NCBI GenBank assembly: GCA_029252405.1
Contig: JAQXBM010000080.1
Span: forward strand, 1-64,000
Length of the DNA: 64,000 nt
Source of the DNA: Crocinitomicaceae bacterium
Lineage (GTDB): Bacteria > Bacteroidota > Bacteroidia > Flavobacteriales_D > Crocinitomicaceae
Direction of reading: 5' to 3'
Shown piece after piece: positions 1,800 through 7,006 of this stretch (the stretch's first letter is position 1; every line of letters begins with the position of its first letter). Made by a program: the position numbers and the translations under genes. The notes below the pieces were generated by a model. The model was not told the DNA's origin. It ran no database searches and saw only the letters and a list, made by a program, of their open reading frames with translations.

Positions 1800-1831
1800 T
1801 TGCAAGATTCGAAACAAAATTAAGACATTTG
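1800..1831 (+). promoter_or_regulatory. possible promoter of the methionine operon
   Basis: A TTG at 1800-1802 and the sequence GACATTTG at 1824-1831 (one mismatch to TAnnTTTG) stand 21 nt apart, close to Bacteroidota sigma-A spacing. The site lies 31 nt before the SAM riboswitch. The match is imperfect, so this is a weak call. Confidence 0.3.
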
Positions 1832-1861
1832 TGCCATCATATCCATAACGATGGAAATATG

Positions 1862-1994
1862 ATTTATACAGAAGAGGGTAGAGACAGGCTCGACGATCCT
1901 CTGGCAACCAACTTTAAGTGCTGACGAAAGTCCGTATTGGAAAACCGGTGCCAATTCCTGATTCCGCTCAATGGTGAGTCGGAAGAATATAAAT
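1862..1994 (+). promoter_or_regulatory. SAM-I (S-box) riboswitch
   Basis: The aptamer can be folded by eye. P1 pairs ATTTATA (1862-1868) with TATAAAT (1988-1994). The P2 strand GAGGGTAGAGACAGGCTC leads into the GACGAT kink-turn-like bulge and CCTCTGGCAACC, the hallmark S-box core. P3 is ACTTT/AAAGT, followed by the conserved GGTGCCAATTCC. P4 is TTCCG-CTCA/TGAG-T-CGGAA. All elements appear in the S-box order. It lies upstream of metX and so should lower expression of the operon when S-adenosylmethionine is abundant. No U-tract terminator follows at once. Instead a short ORF and two weak hairpins separate it from metX, so the expression platform is not clear. Confidence 0.9.
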
Positions 1995-2002
1995 TAATTG
2001 GT

Positions 2003-2122
2003 ATGAAAACCGTACAAAACATCGCTACCGTCCAACCTGGACAAACCAACTTCTTTCTAAGAGGAAAATCATCAATGACATTTTTTGAAATGAACCGAAT
2101 GTGTTGCTGCTGCATGGCTTAA
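2003..2122 (+). CDS. short leader ORF with Cys-Cys-Cys-Cys run (39 aa)
   Basis: An ATG at 2003, 9 nt after the riboswitch P1 helix, opens a 39-codon frame ending in TAA at 2120-2122. Residues 30-38 read M-N-R-M-C-C-C-C-M, so four consecutive Cys codons (2102-2113: TGT TGC TGC TGC) are flanked by Met codons just before the stop. This composition would be odd for a functional protein but is what an amino-acid-sensing leader peptide should look like. Polycysteine leader ORFs that attenuate sulfur genes are known in mycobacteria. The frame is followed by two hairpins and then metX 93 nt later. That it is translated and regulatory is inference; the open frame and Cys run are direct observations. 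Confidence 0.55.
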   Translation: MKTVQNIATVQPGQTNFFLRGKSSMTFFEMNRMCCCCMA

Positions 2123-2125
2123 TTC

Positions 2126-2193
2126 GTCAGCGTCTTTAGAACTCAGATCGCTGATCAATTCATTTAGTATTTCTGTGCGATTTCACTTCGCAC
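2126..2193 (+). promoter_or_regulatory. two small hairpins between leader ORF and metX
   Basis: TCAGCG (2127-2132) pairs with CGCTGA (2149-2154), and GTGCGA (2175-2180) pairs with TCGCAC (2188-2193) around a 7-nt loop. Neither is followed by a T-run, so they do not look like intrinsic terminators. The second ends 22 nt before the metX start and could affect ribosome access. Confidence 0.35.
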
Positions 2194-2215
2194 TCCACAT
2201 TTATTTCATTCAAAA

Positions 2216-3286
2216 ATGTATTCAATTCATTTATCCGCTCCATTCCAATTGGAATCAGGTGAGCAAATCGAAAACCTTGAAATAGGATTTCACATTTACG
2301 GAAAACTCAACCCCGCGAAAGACAACGTGATCTGGGTGTGCCATGCCTTAACCGCGAACAGTGATGTTCTTTCTTGGTGGGATGGACTTTTCGGAGAAGG
2401 TAAACTCTTCGACCCGAACGATTATTTTATCGTCTGTGTAAACGCGCTTGGGTCGTGCTATGGTTCAACTGGACCCAAATCTCCAGGCTTCAATAAGCGT
2501 CCACTACTTGATCAATTTCCTTTGGTCACGACGCGTGATATGGCTCGCGTAAACGATGAGCTGCGAACAATTCTTGGAATTGATAAAGTCTCATTGTTGA
2601 TCGGTGCATCATTGGGTGGTCAGCAAGCCGTCGAGTGGTCGATTCTGAATCCAGAGGTTCATGAAAAAGTGGCACTAATCGCGACAAACGCGCGTCATTC
2701 GGCTTACGGAATTGCGTTCAACGAAAGTCAGCGTTTGGCGATTTTCTCTGATCCTTCCTACGGAAACAACCGCATCGAGGGTGGAAGACAGGGCTTGATC
2801 GCTGCACGCAGCATTGCGATGTTGAGCTACCGAACGTATCAATCGTACAAGAAAACCCAAACGAATCCGGGTGATCACAAAATCGAAGAATTTTTGGCGA
2901 GCAGCTATCAGAATTATCAAGGCCAGAAATTGGCGGATCGATTTTGCGCTTACTCCTACGTCGCACTTTCAAAAGCAATGGACGCGCATAATGTTGGACG
3001 TGGAAGGGAATCAGTTGAAAATGCACTGGACACGATATCCGCAAAGGTTTTGGTGATTGGAATAGAATCGGATCACTTATTTCCATCGGAAGAACAGCAG
3101 TTCCTGGCGAAGTGCATTCCAAATTCCTCCTACTCAGAAATTCAATCGGAATACGGGCACGATGGCTTCTTAATCGAAGCTGAACAATTGGAAGATTTAC
3201 TCTCGAAATTTCTATCGGATGAATCTCCTGAGAATTACTCAAACATCATTCATAACAATCAAACACAATTTAAACTAGCAAAATGA
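2216..3286 (+). CDS. metX: homoserine O-acetyltransferase
   Basis: MetX transfers the acetyl group of acetyl-CoA to homoserine, making O-acetylhomoserine, the activated precursor for homocysteine in the cytosol. The 356-aa alpha/beta hydrolase fold has the nucleophile elbow GASLGG with Ser132, the acid Asp286 (IESDHLF) and His315 (YGHDGF), which form the usual triad. The N-terminal CHALTANSD and GSTGP segments are typical of MetX. Length matches the family. The gene is first in a SAM-riboswitch operon and overlaps homoserine dehydrogenase by 4 nt. Acyl specificity (acetyl versus succinyl) cannot be proven by eye, but the paired sulfhydrylase is compatible with O-acetylhomoserine. Confidence 0.93.
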   Translation: MYSIHLSAPFQLESGEQIENLEIGFHIYGKLNPAKDNVIWVCHALTANSDVLSWWDGLFGEGKLFDPNDYFIVCVNALGSCYGSTGPKSPGFNKRPLLDQFPLVTTRDMARVNDELRTILGIDKVSLLIGASLGGQQAVEWSILNPEVHEKVALIATNARHSAYGIAFNESQRLAIFSDPSYGNNRIEGGRQGLIAARSIAMLSYRTYQSYKKTQTNPGDHKIEEFLASSYQNYQGQKLADRFCAYSYVALSKAMDAHNVGRGRESVENALDTISAKVLVIGIESDHLFPSEEQQFLAKCIPNSSYSEIQSEYGHDGFLIEAEQLEDLLSKFLSDESPENYSNIIHNNQTQFKLAK

Positions 3287-4527
3287 ACAAAGAACTCTCC
3301 ATCGGACTCATCGGCTTTGGTTGCGTGGGATCCGGACTTTATGAGGTATTGAACAAATCAGGCTTGATTCAAGCGAAAATTTCCAAAATTGTCGTGAAAG
3401 ACAGGTACAAGAAACGCCCTATCAAACAGGAAAATTTCTCATACAAAGTCAACGATATTCTCGAAGATGAAAGCATCAACGTAGTTGTCGAGCTTATCGA
3501 TGATAGCGAGCAAGCTTTTGAAATTGTCAAGTGCGCATTAGCTTCAGGAAAGGACGTCGTCTCTGCGAACAAAAAAATGATCGCTGAACATCTCGATGAA
3601 TTATTGGAGCTGGCGAACTCGAACGGCGTTTCACTTTTGTACGAAGGGGCAGTTGCGGGGTCGATTCCAATTCTCAGAAATCTGGAAGAATACTACAACA
3701 ACGATTCACTGACATCTCTCCAAGGAATTGTAAACGGGACGACTAATTATATTCTTACGCAGTCAAATTATGGAATCGCCTATGCTGATGCTTTGGCGCA
3801 GGCACAAGAATTAGGCTTCGCAGAATCGAATCCAACTTTGGATGTCGATGGCTATGATTCGAAATACAAACTGTCAATTTTATTCAAACACGCCTTCGGG
3901 TTATCTGTGGATCCAAAACAATTATTCAACCTTGGGATTCGGCATATTTCGCCACACGCAGTTGCTTACGCCAAAGAAAAAGGATACCGCATTAAGTTGT
4001 TCTCGAGAGCAGAAAAACTGGGCAATCAAGTCGTAGGGTTTGTGGCTCCGCACTTCGTGAAATCGAATCATTTTGCCTATTCAGTGAACGACGAATTCAA
4101 CGCTGTTATTTTGGAGGGATTGTTTTCTGATCAACAGTTATTTGTCGGGAAAGGAGCGGGTAGTCACCCAACAGCAAGTGCTGTTTTATCCGATATTTCC
4201 GCTTTGAAATTCGATTACAAATACGAGTATCGAAAGGTAGATGCAAACCATGAGTTGACCTATTCGGATGATTTCTTCGTTAAGGTTTACATTGAGTCAA
4301 AATACATTGAAGCAATTAACGAAATACCATTCTATCATGTGGATGAACTCTTCCAAAGTGATCAGGTTAACTACCAAACCGGATGGGTAAAATTTAGTGA
4401 GCTGAAGGAGTTTGATTTTAATCATCGCGAAGATCTCTCTTTGGTTATTCTCCCCGAAGCACTAAAAGAATCTATTAGCATCGAAAAGGTCGCGAATCGT
4501 CCTCTTCTGGAAACACTGTACAATTAA
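3283..4527 (+). CDS. hom: homoserine dehydrogenase
   Basis: This enzyme reduces aspartate semialdehyde to homoserine with NAD(P)H, supplying the substrate of the MetX encoded just upstream. The 414-aa protein starts with a Rossmann motif GFGCVGSG (residues 11-18). It continues with the SANKK segment carrying conserved Lys97, the family GAVAGSIPIL stretch, NGTTNYIL and the DVDGYDSKYKL substrate-binding region. It is the monofunctional form with no fused aspartokinase. The start overlaps the metX stop by 4 nt (ATGA), implying translational coupling. A homoserine dehydrogenase inside a SAM-controlled operon suggests a methionine-dedicated copy; whether the genome has another for threonine cannot be seen here. 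Confidence 0.9.
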   Translation: MNKELSIGLIGFGCVGSGLYEVLNKSGLIQAKISKIVVKDRYKKRPIKQENFSYKVNDILEDESINVVVELIDDSEQAFEIVKCALASGKDVVSANKKMIAEHLDELLELANSNGVSLLYEGAVAGSIPILRNLEEYYNNDSLTSLQGIVNGTTNYILTQSNYGIAYADALAQAQELGFAESNPTLDVDGYDSKYKLSILFKHAFGLSVDPKQLFNLGIRHISPHAVAYAKEKGYRIKLFSRAEKLGNQVVGFVAPHFVKSNHFAYSVNDEFNAVILEGLFSDQQLFVGKGAGSHPTASAVLSDISALKFDYKYEYRKVDANHELTYSDDFFVKVYIESKYIEAINEIPFYHVDELFQSDQVNYQTGWVKFSELKEFDFNHREDLSLVILPEALKESISIEKVANRPLLETLYN

Positions 4528-4528
4528 G

Positions 4529-5020
4529 ATGAGCCTTTTACCTTGGTACATTGCGGGCCCTTTGATCGGACTAATGGTTCCAATTCTGTTGATCGCTAGA
4601 GAAAAGCAATTGGGTCTTTCTTCGACCTATCGCTACTTAGGGAGTTTCATTCTTCCTAGGAATAGCTATTTCAACTATGATCGCAAAAAGGATGCATGGC
4701 AAGTCCAGTTCGCAATAGGGATCGCCAGTGCAGCAATATTGATTTTTCAGTTCGATTTGTACGAGTCGGAAAGTCTAGATTCTAGCAAAGAATACCTTCG
4801 TTATTTCCCTGAAGTTTGCAGCCTTCAGAATTGGTTCATGTTTGCCATTGGGGGGATTTTTGTTGGTTTCGGAGCGCGCTATGCAGGAGGCTGTACCGCC
4901 GGTCATTGTATCATGGGGAATTCACAGCTGTCCGTGTCCTCAATTCTGTCGACGTGTATGTTTTTCGCAGGTGGTTTAGCCGTCAGTCACTTCATTTTAC
5001 CCTATTTATTCAAGTCATGA
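4529..5020 (+). CDS. YeeE/YedE family sulfur transporter, first half
   Basis: This 163-aa integral membrane protein belongs to the YeeE/YedE (TsuA-like) family. Members import thiosulfate or related sulfur compounds through paired conserved Cys residues. Membrane stretches are visible near residues 4-22, 60-76, 103-120 and 139-158. The diagnostic GCTAGHCIMG motif spans residues 121-130 and has Cys122 and Cys127. It is half the size of full-length TsuA, and the following gene supplies the second half. It begins 1 nt after hom and overlaps the next gene by 4 nt. Placement in a SAM-riboswitch operon ending in a sulfhydrylase supports a role in bringing in sulfur for homocysteine synthesis. Confidence 0.82.
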   Translation: MSLLPWYIAGPLIGLMVPILLIAREKQLGLSSTYRYLGSFILPRNSYFNYDRKKDAWQVQFAIGIASAAILIFQFDLYESESLDSSKEYLRYFPEVCSLQNWFMFAIGGIFVGFGARYAGGCTAGHCIMGNSQLSVSSILSTCMFFAGGLAVSHFILPYLFKS

Positions 5021-5433
5021 GAAATACAGTCAAAAGCATTTTGCTCGGTGCAGTTTTCGGGAGTATCTTGATTTTCAGTGATGCGTTCAACTGGTACCGA
5101 ATCCAGGAGATGTTCCATTTCGATTCTTTTCACATGTACGGATTGATCGGTTCGGCCATCGTCGTTGCGGGAAGTGTAACTTGGTTGTTGAAAAAAGCGG
5201 GAGTGAAATCTGCTTCTAAACAATTAATTCAAACAAAGAAGAAGGAAATCCGACCAGTTGGAAATAGCATTGGAGGCCTCATCTTCGGAGCGGGTTGGGC
5301 ATTGACAGGAGCTTGTACAGCGCCCATTTTTATTCTGATTGGATACCAATGGGAAATTGGAATAATCACGCTAGCGGGAGCCGTAATTGGTGCAGTGCTC
5401 TACGGAATTTTAAACAAGAAATTACCATTATGA
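5017..5433 (+). CDS. YeeE/YedE-type partner protein (DUF6691-like), second half
   Basis: This 138-aa membrane protein is the companion half of the split transporter. The open frame extends upstream to 4816, but that part is an out-of-frame shadow of the previous gene. The ATG at 5017 overlaps its stop (ATGA) and gives a normal N-terminus. Four hydrophobic segments are visible, and residues 90-103 hold the second family motif, FGAGWALTGACTAP, with Cys100. Two half-length YeeE/YedE proteins encoded side by side probably assemble into one channel. Similar pairs elsewhere in bacteria accompany persulfide or sulfide enzymes. The gene overlaps the OsmC gene by 4 nt. Confidence 0.78.
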   Translation: MRNTVKSILLGAVFGSILIFSDAFNWYRIQEMFHFDSFHMYGLIGSAIVVAGSVTWLLKKAGVKSASKQLIQTKKKEIRPVGNSIGGLIFGAGWALTGACTAPIFILIGYQWEIGIITLAGAVIGAVLYGILNKKLPL

Positions 5434-5846
5434 GATTAGAACTAACAAGAATTGAAGAACCATTTGTGTTTCAAGTGGAGAACGAAGATGGATTGACGTG
5501 CACGATGGATGCGAGCGAAGCGATTGGCGGGAAAAAGAAAGGGATGCGCCCGATGGAGCTGCTGGCGGCATCACTAGCTGGCTGCGCTTCTATAGACATC
5601 ACTCGTATGTTGACAAAGAAGCGAATTCCAACGAAGCACTTTTCCATTGCCATTGAAGCAAAACGCTCAGACAGTCTCCCTTCACCTTTTGAATGGATTC
5701 AACTGAACATTTCAGTCGATCCGCACATCGATCAAGAGCAAGTGAAAAAGGTGGTCGAATTGACCTTGGAAAAGTATTGCTCCGTCTCAACTTCCTTGAA
5801 CAAAAACATCAGCATTCGCTATTCAATTAATGATCAATCAGTATGA
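5430..5846 (+). CDS. OsmC family protein
   Basis: This 138-aa OsmC/Ohr-fold protein is probably a homodimeric cytosolic thiol peroxidase or sulfur-handling protein. The start at 5430 overlaps the preceding stop. The long helix motif PMELLAASLAGCASID carries Cys52 and the C-terminal half carries KYCSV with Cys117, so both reactive cysteines of the family are kept. OsmC members reduce organic peroxides. Placed between a YeeE/YedE transporter pair and a sulfhydrylase, however, it could act as a Cys-based sulfur carrier, a job done by TusA-like TsuB next to TsuA in other bacteria. That last point is inference from context. Confidence 0.85.
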   Translation: MRLELTRIEEPFVFQVENEDGLTCTMDASEAIGGKKKGMRPMELLAASLAGCASIDITRMLTKKRIPTKHFSIAIEAKRSDSLPSPFEWIQLNISVDPHIDQEQVKKVVELTLEKYCSVSTSLNKNISIRYSINDQSV

Positions 5847-7006
5847 ACAAAATAGAAACAATCGCAATTCGAACGCAATCCGAACGCTCAAACTCGAACG
5901 AGCATTCCGTGCCACTTTATTTGACCAGTAGTTACGTTTTTGAAGGGGCGGAGGACATGAGAAGTCAGTTTGCCGAGGAAACACCGGGACACATCTACTC
6001 GCGCTACGCGAATCCGAATGTAGACGAATTCATTGATAAACTAACGCGCATGGAGGGCGCAGAAGCAGGTTGGGCAACGGCTACAGGAATGGCTGCGGTT
6101 TTTTCGTGCTTCGCAGGGTTATTGGAAAGTGGGGATCACATTGTTTCCTCTAGATCAGTTTTCGGTTCTACGCACAAACTATTTACTGAAATTCTGCCAA
6201 AGTGGGGAATCGAAACGACCTATGTGGATGCGCATGATTTAGAAGGATTTCAACGAGCCATTAGACCAGAAACGAAAATTCTGTACGCTGAAACTCCGAG
6301 TAATCCCGCGTTGGATATTTTGGATTTAGAGGCGATTGCGAACATTTGTAAACAGAACTCTATCCTCTTCGCAGTAGACAATTGCTTCGCAACGCCAATT
6401 TTACAGCGACCGATTGAATTTGGTGCAGATATCGTCATTCATTCTGCGACGAAATACATCGATGGCCAAGGGCGAACCTTGGGCGGAGCGATCCTTTCAA
6501 ATCAAGAGGTGATTGCTCAAATTAAAGCCTTCGCTCGTCACAGTGGGCCAGCATTAAGTCCATTTAATGCTTGGGTGTTGTCGAAGTCAATCGAAACCTT
6601 GTCCTTGCGAATGGAGCGACACAGCGATAATGCACTCAAAATTGCCAAACGTTTGGAAGATCACAATTCCGTTGAATCTGTGCGTTATCCTTTTTTAACA
6701 TCTCACCCCAATCACGAACTTGCGAAGAAACAGATGTCCTTCGGTGGTGGGATTGTTAGTTTTGAAATCAAAGGTGGAGTGGAAGCTGGAAAGCAGTTTT
6801 TAGATCACCTACAAATGTTTTCATTGACGGCAAATTTGGGGGATACGCGAAGCATTGCAACGCATCCTGCATCTACAACTCACTCAAAATTAAGTCCTGA
6901 GGAACGGGCAGAAGTGGGGATCACTGATGGGCTCGTTCGACTTTCGATTGGACTAGAGAATATTGAAGATATTTGGGAAGATGTTGAGCAGGCGTTATTT
7001 TCTTGA
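5843..7006 (+). CDS. metZ: O-acetylhomoserine sulfhydrylase (MetZ/MetY-type, Cys/Met PLP enzyme)
   Basis: This 387-aa cytosolic enzyme of the Cys/Met-metabolism PLP family joins sulfide to the activated homoserine made by MetX and yields homocysteine directly. The PLP lysine is Lys204 in HSATKYIDGQG, a version typical of O-succinylhomoserine sulfhydrylase (MetZ)-like sequences. SRYANPN near residues 53-59 and the VDNCFATP segment are further family marks. MetZ of other bacteria prefers O-succinylhomoserine, but the operon partner here is MetX, so O-acetylhomoserine is the more likely substrate. It closes the six-gene SAM-riboswitch operon and overlaps the OsmC gene by 4 nt. No methionine synthase is in the window. 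Confidence 0.88.
   Translation: MNKIETIAIRTQSERSNSNEHSVPLYLTSSYVFEGAEDMRSQFAEETPGHIYSRYANPNVDEFIDKLTRMEGAEAGWATATGMAAVFSCFAGLLESGDHIVSSRSVFGSTHKLFTEILPKWGIETTYVDAHDLEGFQRAIRPETKILYAETPSNPALDILDLEAIANICKQNSILFAVDNCFATPILQRPIEFGADIVIHSATKYIDGQGRTLGGAILSNQEVIAQIKAFARHSGPALSPFNAWVLSKSIETLSLRMERHSDNALKIAKRLEDHNSVESVRYPFLTSHPNHELAKKQMSFGGGIVSFEIKGGVEAGKQFLDHLQMFSLTANLGDTRSIATHPASTTHSKLSPEERAEVGITDGLVRLSIGLENIEDIWEDVEQALFS

Follow-up and report, generated by a model that had tools for sequence, protein, structure and literature searches.

Why does a short open reading frame (ORF) that ends in a run of cysteine codons lie between a SAM-I (S-box) riboswitch and metX, and what might it sense? The question arises in the first 64,000 nucleotides of a Crocinitomicaceae contig (JAQXBM010000080.1, assembly GCA_029252405.1), the stretch analyzed here and called the window. 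The original prediction, made from the letters of the window alone, was that the ORF is the leader of an attenuator that reads charged Cys-tRNA and perhaps Met-tRNA, so that SAM and Cys would both be sensed in a single mRNA leader. We have compared this leader with its counterparts in the same genus and beyond, and have asked what its conservation, its genomic company and its predicted folding say about that idea.

Anatomy of the leader and its operon

The basic arrangement was read correctly: a SAM-I aptamer is followed by a 39-codon ORF ending MCCCCMA and then by metX (Table 1). The aptamer lies well above the Rfam gathering score (59.1 versus 44.4 bits), and the ORF begins 7 nt past the Rfam match and lies 93 nt upstream of metX. 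Its four Cys codons (2102-2113) are bordered by Met codons on either side (2099-2101 and 2114-2116). The gene that we take to be metX owes its name to the original prediction and to general knowledge of the family. Because the genes behind it encode a homoserine dehydrogenase, sulfur transport proteins, an OsmC-like protein and a PLP enzyme, the leader fronts a sulfur amino acid operon, and the ORF at 2003-2122 meets one expectation for an attenuator, namely a short ORF ahead of the biosynthetic operon of the amino acid sensed.

Upstream of the aptamer, a promoter-like pair of the form TTG ... (A/G)ANNTTTG has similar counterparts in many of 26 upstream regions and is clearest within the genus (by eye). 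We take this pair to be a probable Bacteroidota -33/-7 promoter; a sigma-70 scan of the leader region of the window found nothing there. The small stem immediately 5' of the aptamer reads CCAC/GTGG in many same-genus relatives, in keeping with a CCAY/RTGG pattern (by eye). Two small hairpins had also been noted after the ORF. Both are present in the window, and the first of them is not a shared feature: in our alignment (A3, by eye) of G000, G400, G288 and G008, which we call the window clade, the hairpin 1 stretch is absent from the three nearest relatives (G400, G288 and G008), whereas hairpin 2 is common to the whole clade and shows paired changes in G008.

Table 1. Features of the leader region and operon, in window coordinates
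Feature	Position	Strand	Basis
Probable promoter: TTG (1800-1802) and GACATTTG (1824-1831)	1800-1831	+	Motif recurrence, by eye
Small 5' stem, CCAT/ATGG, immediately 5' of the aptamer	1843-1854	+	By eye
SAM-I (S-box) riboswitch aptamer	1861-1995	+	Rfam RF00162, 59.1 bits
Leader peptide ORF, 39 codons, ATG start, MKTVQNIATVQPGQTNFFLRGKSSMTFFEMNRMCCCCMA	2003-2122	+	ORF list; conserved start position and Cys/Met end
5' strand of predicted helix with the metX start region (last codons ahead of the Cys run, into the first Cys codon)	2078-2103	+	Folding
Proposed sensor codons, Met-Cys-Cys-Cys-Cys-Met	2099-2116	+	ORF translation; Cys/Met enrichment
Hairpin 1, TCAGCG/CGCTGA	2127-2154	+	Alignment A3; predicted fold
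Hairpin 2, GTGCGA/TCGCAC	2175-2193	+	Alignment A3; predicted fold
3' strand of predicted helix, includes the metX start codon	2196-2219	+	Folding
metX, homoserine O-acetyltransferase type alpha/beta hydrolase, 356 aa	2216-3286	+	Pfam PF00561
Homoserine dehydrogenase	3283-4527	+	PF00742, PF03447
Sulfur transport protein	4529-5020	+	PF04143
Second sulfur transport protein	5017-5433	+	PF04143; start inferred inside a longer ORF
OsmC-like protein	5430-5846	+	PF02566; start inferred inside a longer ORF
Cys/Met metabolism PLP enzyme	5843-7006	+	PF01053

The leader within the genus

A metX search gave matches in 16 of 34 same-genus genomes. One locus (G005) was excluded as unreadable, having only 72 nt upstream of metX, and at all 15 readable loci the aptamer is followed by an ORF. 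Adding G009, cut by a contig end shortly past the start of metX, and G013, with a fragmented metX, gives 17 genus leaders of 32-51 codons, all taken without regard to Cys. The prediction would have been refuted had close relatives lacked the ORF or differed in its frame; the ORF is present at every readable locus, and the differences seen are in-frame indels.

At least three Cys are found among the last 12 residues in 12 of the 17 leaders. Of the other five, G400 and G013 have two, G008 and G205 have one each and G288 has none; in G013 a CCCC run lies slightly earlier than this stretch. In the nearest relative, G400 (metX 91% identical), the Cys run is shorter by two codons, with the frame intact. 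The two relatives next in metX identity, G288 and then G008, have kept the ORF with zero and one Cys, the G288 leader ending in SRMRQMA. The expectation that the Cys run would be conserved while the rest of the peptide was not is thus borne out in most relatives and fails in these two.

Selection on the end of the peptide

We next consider what in the leader is maintained, using 33 leaders: the 17 from the genus, and 16 others that were chosen after their Cys ends had been seen. Repeats were left out, as were L221 (no aptamer in the sequence) and the Cys-poor ORFs of L242, L282 and L220. Among the final 12 residues, 38% are Cys and 17% are Met, whereas each accounts for 1.4% of the body. At least three Cys occur in the last 12 residues of 28 of the 33, versus 0.4% of nucleotide-shuffled leader ORFs. 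Both Cys codons are used (TGT 83 times, TGC 79 times), and synonymous differences at shared Cys codons are seen in seven of nine pairs compared, for example three of seven in L045/L046 and five of six in G018/G171; there were none in G004/G010 (zero of three) or L197/L199 (zero of nine). The body of the L199 leader is 14 codons longer than that of L197, with frame and end unchanged.

Because Cys codons change synonymously and the body drifts and takes up indels while the frame stays the same, it is the end residues that are kept, and not the DNA or the rest of the peptide. This comparison of sequences supports a real, selected leader peptide. A terminal codon run that is conserved while the remainder drifts is also what an attenuator would be expected to have, and the leaders conform to this with the exceptions of G288, G008 and G205. 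Since Cys and Met both rise steeply at the leader end, both sulfur amino acids are probably read; that the reading is of Cys-tRNA charging is inferred. The role allowed only tentatively to Met-tRNA in the original prediction can be put more strongly, the Met codons being as integral to the conserved end as that suggestion allowed.

Association with SAM aptamers and metX

Does the leader accompany the aptamer, metX or both? We examined 80 named metX loci, ranked best among at least 575 relatives; most of them, but not all, are from Bacteroidota. A SAM aptamer is present at 19 of these by Rfam, the count used here; a regular expression gave 20, with L084 dropping out. We counted short ORFs within 700 nt upstream of metX whose final 12 residues include three Cys or more: 17 of the 19 loci with an aptamer have one, versus 3 of the 61 without (Fisher 1.8e-12). 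The antisense control at the same threshold gave 0 of 19 and 6 of 61, and a threshold of at least two Cys gave 17 of 19 versus 10 of 61. The two SAM-positive exceptions are L042, which is the one-Cys leader of G008, and L111, where metX itself stands behind the aptamer. By record title, the positives include Flavobacteriales, Sphingobacteriaceae, Mucilaginibacter, Olivibacter and a Cytophagaceae bin. One of them, Olivibacter sp. XZL3 (L089), is entered as a strain and not as a MAG, and three Cys stand among the final 12 residues of its leader. Such ORFs were thus found where the prediction proposed to look, before metX in other Flavobacteriales; the arrangement is not limited to that order, and confinement of the leader to the genus of the window is rejected.

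In the class as a whole, sampled through genomes of 90% completeness or more, metX was found in 93 of 247 genomes. Leaving aside the window's own locus, a covariance model placed the aptamer ahead of metX at 9 of the 92 that remain. Cys-rich leaders occur in 5 of 9 loci with SAM versus 3 of 83 without (Fisher 1.3e-4). The four SAM-metX loci lacking a Cys leader are L230, L242, L282 and L220, and one of the three SAM-negative positives is L221, with a fitting leader at the contig end. Counts from the genus, named and class-wide sets are not additive: L042, L047 and L051 repeat G008, G010 and G018; L044, L049 and L050 are the same leaders as G282, G314 and G322; and L196 is the same as L075.

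SAM loci that do not precede metX behave differently. No short ORF with a Cys-Cys end starting within 300 nt was found at any of 51 readable loci, L013 and L020 having dropped out of the original 53. These loci were screened for Cys-Cys within the final 16 residues in place of the three-Cys criterion applied before metX, and 27 of the control loci were called non-metX only by their first ORF, the others by tblastn. The window's own genome holds a second SAM aptamer, before a gene beginning MNRIQEILQERILVLDGAMGTMIQR, presumably methionine synthase, with no Cys run behind the aptamer. Three same-genus genomes without a metX match also carry SAM matches, two above the Rfam cut-off (G017, 57.7 bits; G012, 52.4 bits) and two below it (G006, 37.4 bits; a second in G017, 35.2 bits), and none of the four has a Cys-ended leader.

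These data bear on two explanations in which the Cys run is not a sensor of tRNA charging. The simplest is that a chance ORF happens to contain a chance TGY run. The motif TGYTGYTGYTGY has 41 sites in the whole 4.28 Mb genome, among which (28 of 30 loci read, not judged gene by gene) no second leader was clear. Because 21 of its occurrences are on the forward strand, an in-frame copy is calculated to be expected in a given 120-nt ORF only about 2 times in 10,000. Chance would also have to account for in-frame conservation of the Cys end across unlike peptides, for conservation throughout the genus, for the enrichment at the leader end, for the association with SAM and metX and for 0 of 51 at other SAM loci, and we reject it as scarcely credible. 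The other explanation is that the sensor is the nascent peptide, rich in Cys and Met, which would respond to some other signal, such as Cu(I), zinc, sulfide or redox state, by stalling the ribosome or letting it go. Strings of the Met-X-Met and Cys-Cys type also commonly serve as ligands for metals. Redox status is named as an option for mycobacterial Cys uORFs in the accessible part of PMC4633059. A ligand-binding peptide of this kind sits poorly with the number and spacing of Cys and Met, which vary among leaders (Cys from none to eight), and with an ORF that is tied to SAM and metX and is absent at the other SAM loci read, including the four matches just described in genomes without metX. 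We consider it improbable.

A predicted helix over the metX start, and how metX might be controlled

How could the end of the leader act on metX? In the window clade, the metX start region is predicted to pair with a strand made up of the codons that lead into the Cys run and the beginning of the run itself. For 2069-2230 the predicted folding energy is -39.9 kcal/mol (z -3.9), a stability that 0 of 200 shuffles reached, although stability is uneven across the clade (z -3.05, -1.30, -3.80 and -2.48; 120 shuffles). In all four members, the start region is predicted to be 18-27% unpaired when the leader is free of ribosomes, 57-74% unpaired when a ribosome occupies the first Cys codon (in G288, which has no Cys, set five codons before the end), and 18-32% unpaired with a ribosome at the stop codon. 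Shuffled versions of the part after the stop reach the same opening in only 0-3% of trials. G288 retains the predicted helix without any Cys, which tells against the model given below. An initial round of folding with the whole leader gave a weaker contrast, the start region of the window going from 0.29 to 0.64 unpaired, with G400, G288, G008 and G322 similar and little or no effect in most of the other 12. On these folding predictions, the switching element in the window clade would be this long helix and not hairpin 1 or 2.

The predicted structural switch is not general. Opening beats shuffles (at most 4%) in 8 of 27 leaders (G000, G400, G288, G008, G171, G322, G013 and L048) and does not do so in the other 19. 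Cognate leader-start pairing is better than permuted pairing across the 27 leaders (P 0.0056) and the 17 genus leaders (P 0.010), whereas no advantage is seen in the 12 genus leaders that remain once G322 and the window clade are removed (P 0.58), nor a clear one in the 10 non-genus leaders (P 0.12). With these two subsets, a helix over the start of the next gene in all lineages is rejected as a general rule.

An output at the level of transcription could be of two kinds. An intrinsic terminator before the first gene, as a transcriptional-type attenuator would have, is not in evidence: a terminator search found none in 1780-2320 and a separate, simple scan gave one candidate among 27 leaders, and we reject this output. 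Alternatively, the same sensor could act through Rho. A ribosome stalled at the leader end would shield the C-rich stretch after the stop, and when the leader was finished, or went untranslated at high SAM, Rho would load and end transcription before metX. The absence of terminator-like sites is compatible with this, and C exceeds G between the stop and the next gene in 29 of 33 leaders versus 30 of 60 metX upstream regions without SAM. There is precedent, to the extent that the available text of each paper tells, in the Rho-dependent termination reported with a riboswitch-controlled uORF in Mycobacterium tuberculosis (PMC12810186) and in the same proposal for actinobacterial Cys leaders (PMC1262725). 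However, the C excess is mild (21% versus 14% G), the leaders and the control regions come from different gene contexts and lineages, and the window clade has a specific and statistically supported helix over the metX start. As the main output we therefore hold Rho to be possible but doubtful; because of the difference in C over G between leaders and controls, it remains open in other lineages or in addition to the helix.

A proposed SAM input and a two-input model

The position of the leader start points to how SAM might enter. In 17 of 17 genus leaders, the start codon lies 8-9 nt past ATATAAAT, the closing strand at the end of the aptamer, and these leaders satisfy what is expected of a riboswitch-controlled uORF, a start within reach of the closing stem. 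In L111 (aptamer 1347-1488), metX itself begins 8 nt behind the aptamer, in the usual place of the leader, and in L230 (aptamer 964-1084), metX begins 11 nt behind, with a 12-codon ORF overlapping its start. Because the leader start is so placed in every genus leader, and metX takes that place in L111 and L230, SAM binding is suggested to control initiation at whichever ORF starts there; the effect of the ligand is inferred, not proven.

If so, the leader might do no more than relay SAM control to metX by translational coupling, with the Cys end being a functional peptide or a by-product. Such coupling has a parallel in the riboswitch-controlled leader of M. tuberculosis ppe2, where, according to the portion of PMC11260477 at hand, translation proceeds mainly by termination-reinitiation, and it would agree with the ORF being kept in G288 and G008 with few or no Cys. 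Against this, in the genus 64-127 nt separate the leader stop from the gene that follows, a long way for reinitiation, and a by-product would not keep its Cys residues through synonymous change. Simple relay thus seems unlikely, if marginally less so than direct sensing by the peptide.

The reading that we favor, and judge probable, is a sulfur leader with two inputs in series, in which the SAM aptamer gates the leader and the Cys and Met codons of the leader gate metX. The aptamer would control translation of the ORF 8-9 nt behind its closing strand, which here is the leader peptide and not metX. At high SAM, P1 would close against the initiation region of the leader, an inference from position. 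At low SAM, the leader would be translated, and its last codons would test the supply of Cys-tRNA and probably of Met-tRNA. In the window clade, if the folding predictions are correct, a ribosome that completed the leader would leave the codons before the Cys run to pair with the metX start and shut it, and one held at the Cys/Met codons would cover the 5' strand and free metX. The operon would be fully expressed if SAM were low and either Cys or Met were short. The anatomy, the conservation, the codon bias and the association with SAM and metX are established, and a structural switch is predicted; ligand binding, ribosome stalling, the direction of control and the sensing of Cys-tRNA are inferred. 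The idea that SAM and Cys are sensed in one leader is supported by the conserved ORF, its Cys end and the association with SAM and metX, its Cys-tRNA part remaining inference. With slightly less assurance, we would extend it to a riboswitch and a sulfur amino-acid attenuator in series, an AND-type gate across several Bacteroidota lineages, with metX replacing the leader in two loci.

Relation to known systems

Each part of this arrangement has relatives. The Salmonella mgtA leader likewise combines an ion-sensing RNA and a proline-rich leader peptide in one 5' region, for another ligand and another amino acid. In mycobacteria, Cys-run uORFs are on record (PMC4633059, in part), and polycysteine leaderless short ORFs act in Cys-responsive attenuation (Canestrari et al. 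2020, as related in the accessible part of PMC9031893). These resemble the present leader in being short ORFs with contiguous Cys codons before operon genes. They differ in being leaderless, whereas the ORF here stands behind a SAM-I aptamer with a promoter-like motif about 170 nt upstream, carries Met codons as well, and precedes metX in Bacteroidota. Actinobacterial cys and cbs leader peptides also have Cys runs near the stop codon and, in Mycobacterium, no conserved terminator hairpins, as here; they concern other genes in another phylum, and no riboswitch is mentioned in what was available of the source (PMC1262725). Before cysS in Rhodobacterales, uORFC-8-2 has tandem Cys codons and a proposed ribosome-mediated attenuation, but with two Cys codons, an intrinsic terminator and, as far as the accessible text goes, no tie to a SAM riboswitch (PMC8632094). 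The B12 switch of ppe2 (PMC11260477) and the Mbox of pe20 (PMC12810186) in M. tuberculosis directly control a small ORF ahead of an operon, as proposed here, yet their ligands are B12 and magnesium and the parts of these reports at hand describe no amino-acid sensing run. PMC1273637, in the part accessible, deals with other elements, SAM-II among them.

In the open literature searched, with most subscription journals outside its scope, we found no SAM riboswitch joined to a Cys/Met leader peptide, judging by titles and the opening of abstracts, and no description of Cys/Met leader-peptide control in Bacteroidota. If the two-input reading is true, one mRNA leader gauges the end product by RNA and the amino-acid supply by the ribosome, the first sensor (SAM) acting on the second (the leader peptide), and Cys/Met leader-peptide control is extended to Bacteroidota. 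The same-genus leaders with eight, four, two, one and zero Cys codons (G171, G000, G400, G008 and G288) constitute a natural test series.

Variant loci

Several loci depart from the usual arrangement. The leftover SAM matches in same-genus genomes without a metX match are L034, L038, L040 and L041, the last two below the Rfam cut-off; in G012 the decayed remnant of a Cys leader (L038) is visible, with a stop before it. In G013 (L035, 1839-2674), the metX pieces run into the end of the PLP enzyme gene with the leader intact, as if by mid-operon loss or misassembly. The leader of L221 (1-90), MTSKEIISAFNCIMRCSCCCMRQC, starts about 11 nt from the contig end, the aptamer presumably lying beyond. 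In L242, a 21-codon ORF without Cys lies about 9 nt behind the aptamer at 266-391 on the reverse strand and may be a leader reading something else. A gene of about 75 codons stands between the Cys leader and metX in L052, L058, L062, L075, L086 and L115, and also in L196, L197 and L199; the L058 copy had no Pfam match. Finally, the leader of L046, a record titled as a Chitinophaga pinensis MAG, is nearly that of the Flavobacteriales record L045, and its title may be a misnomer.
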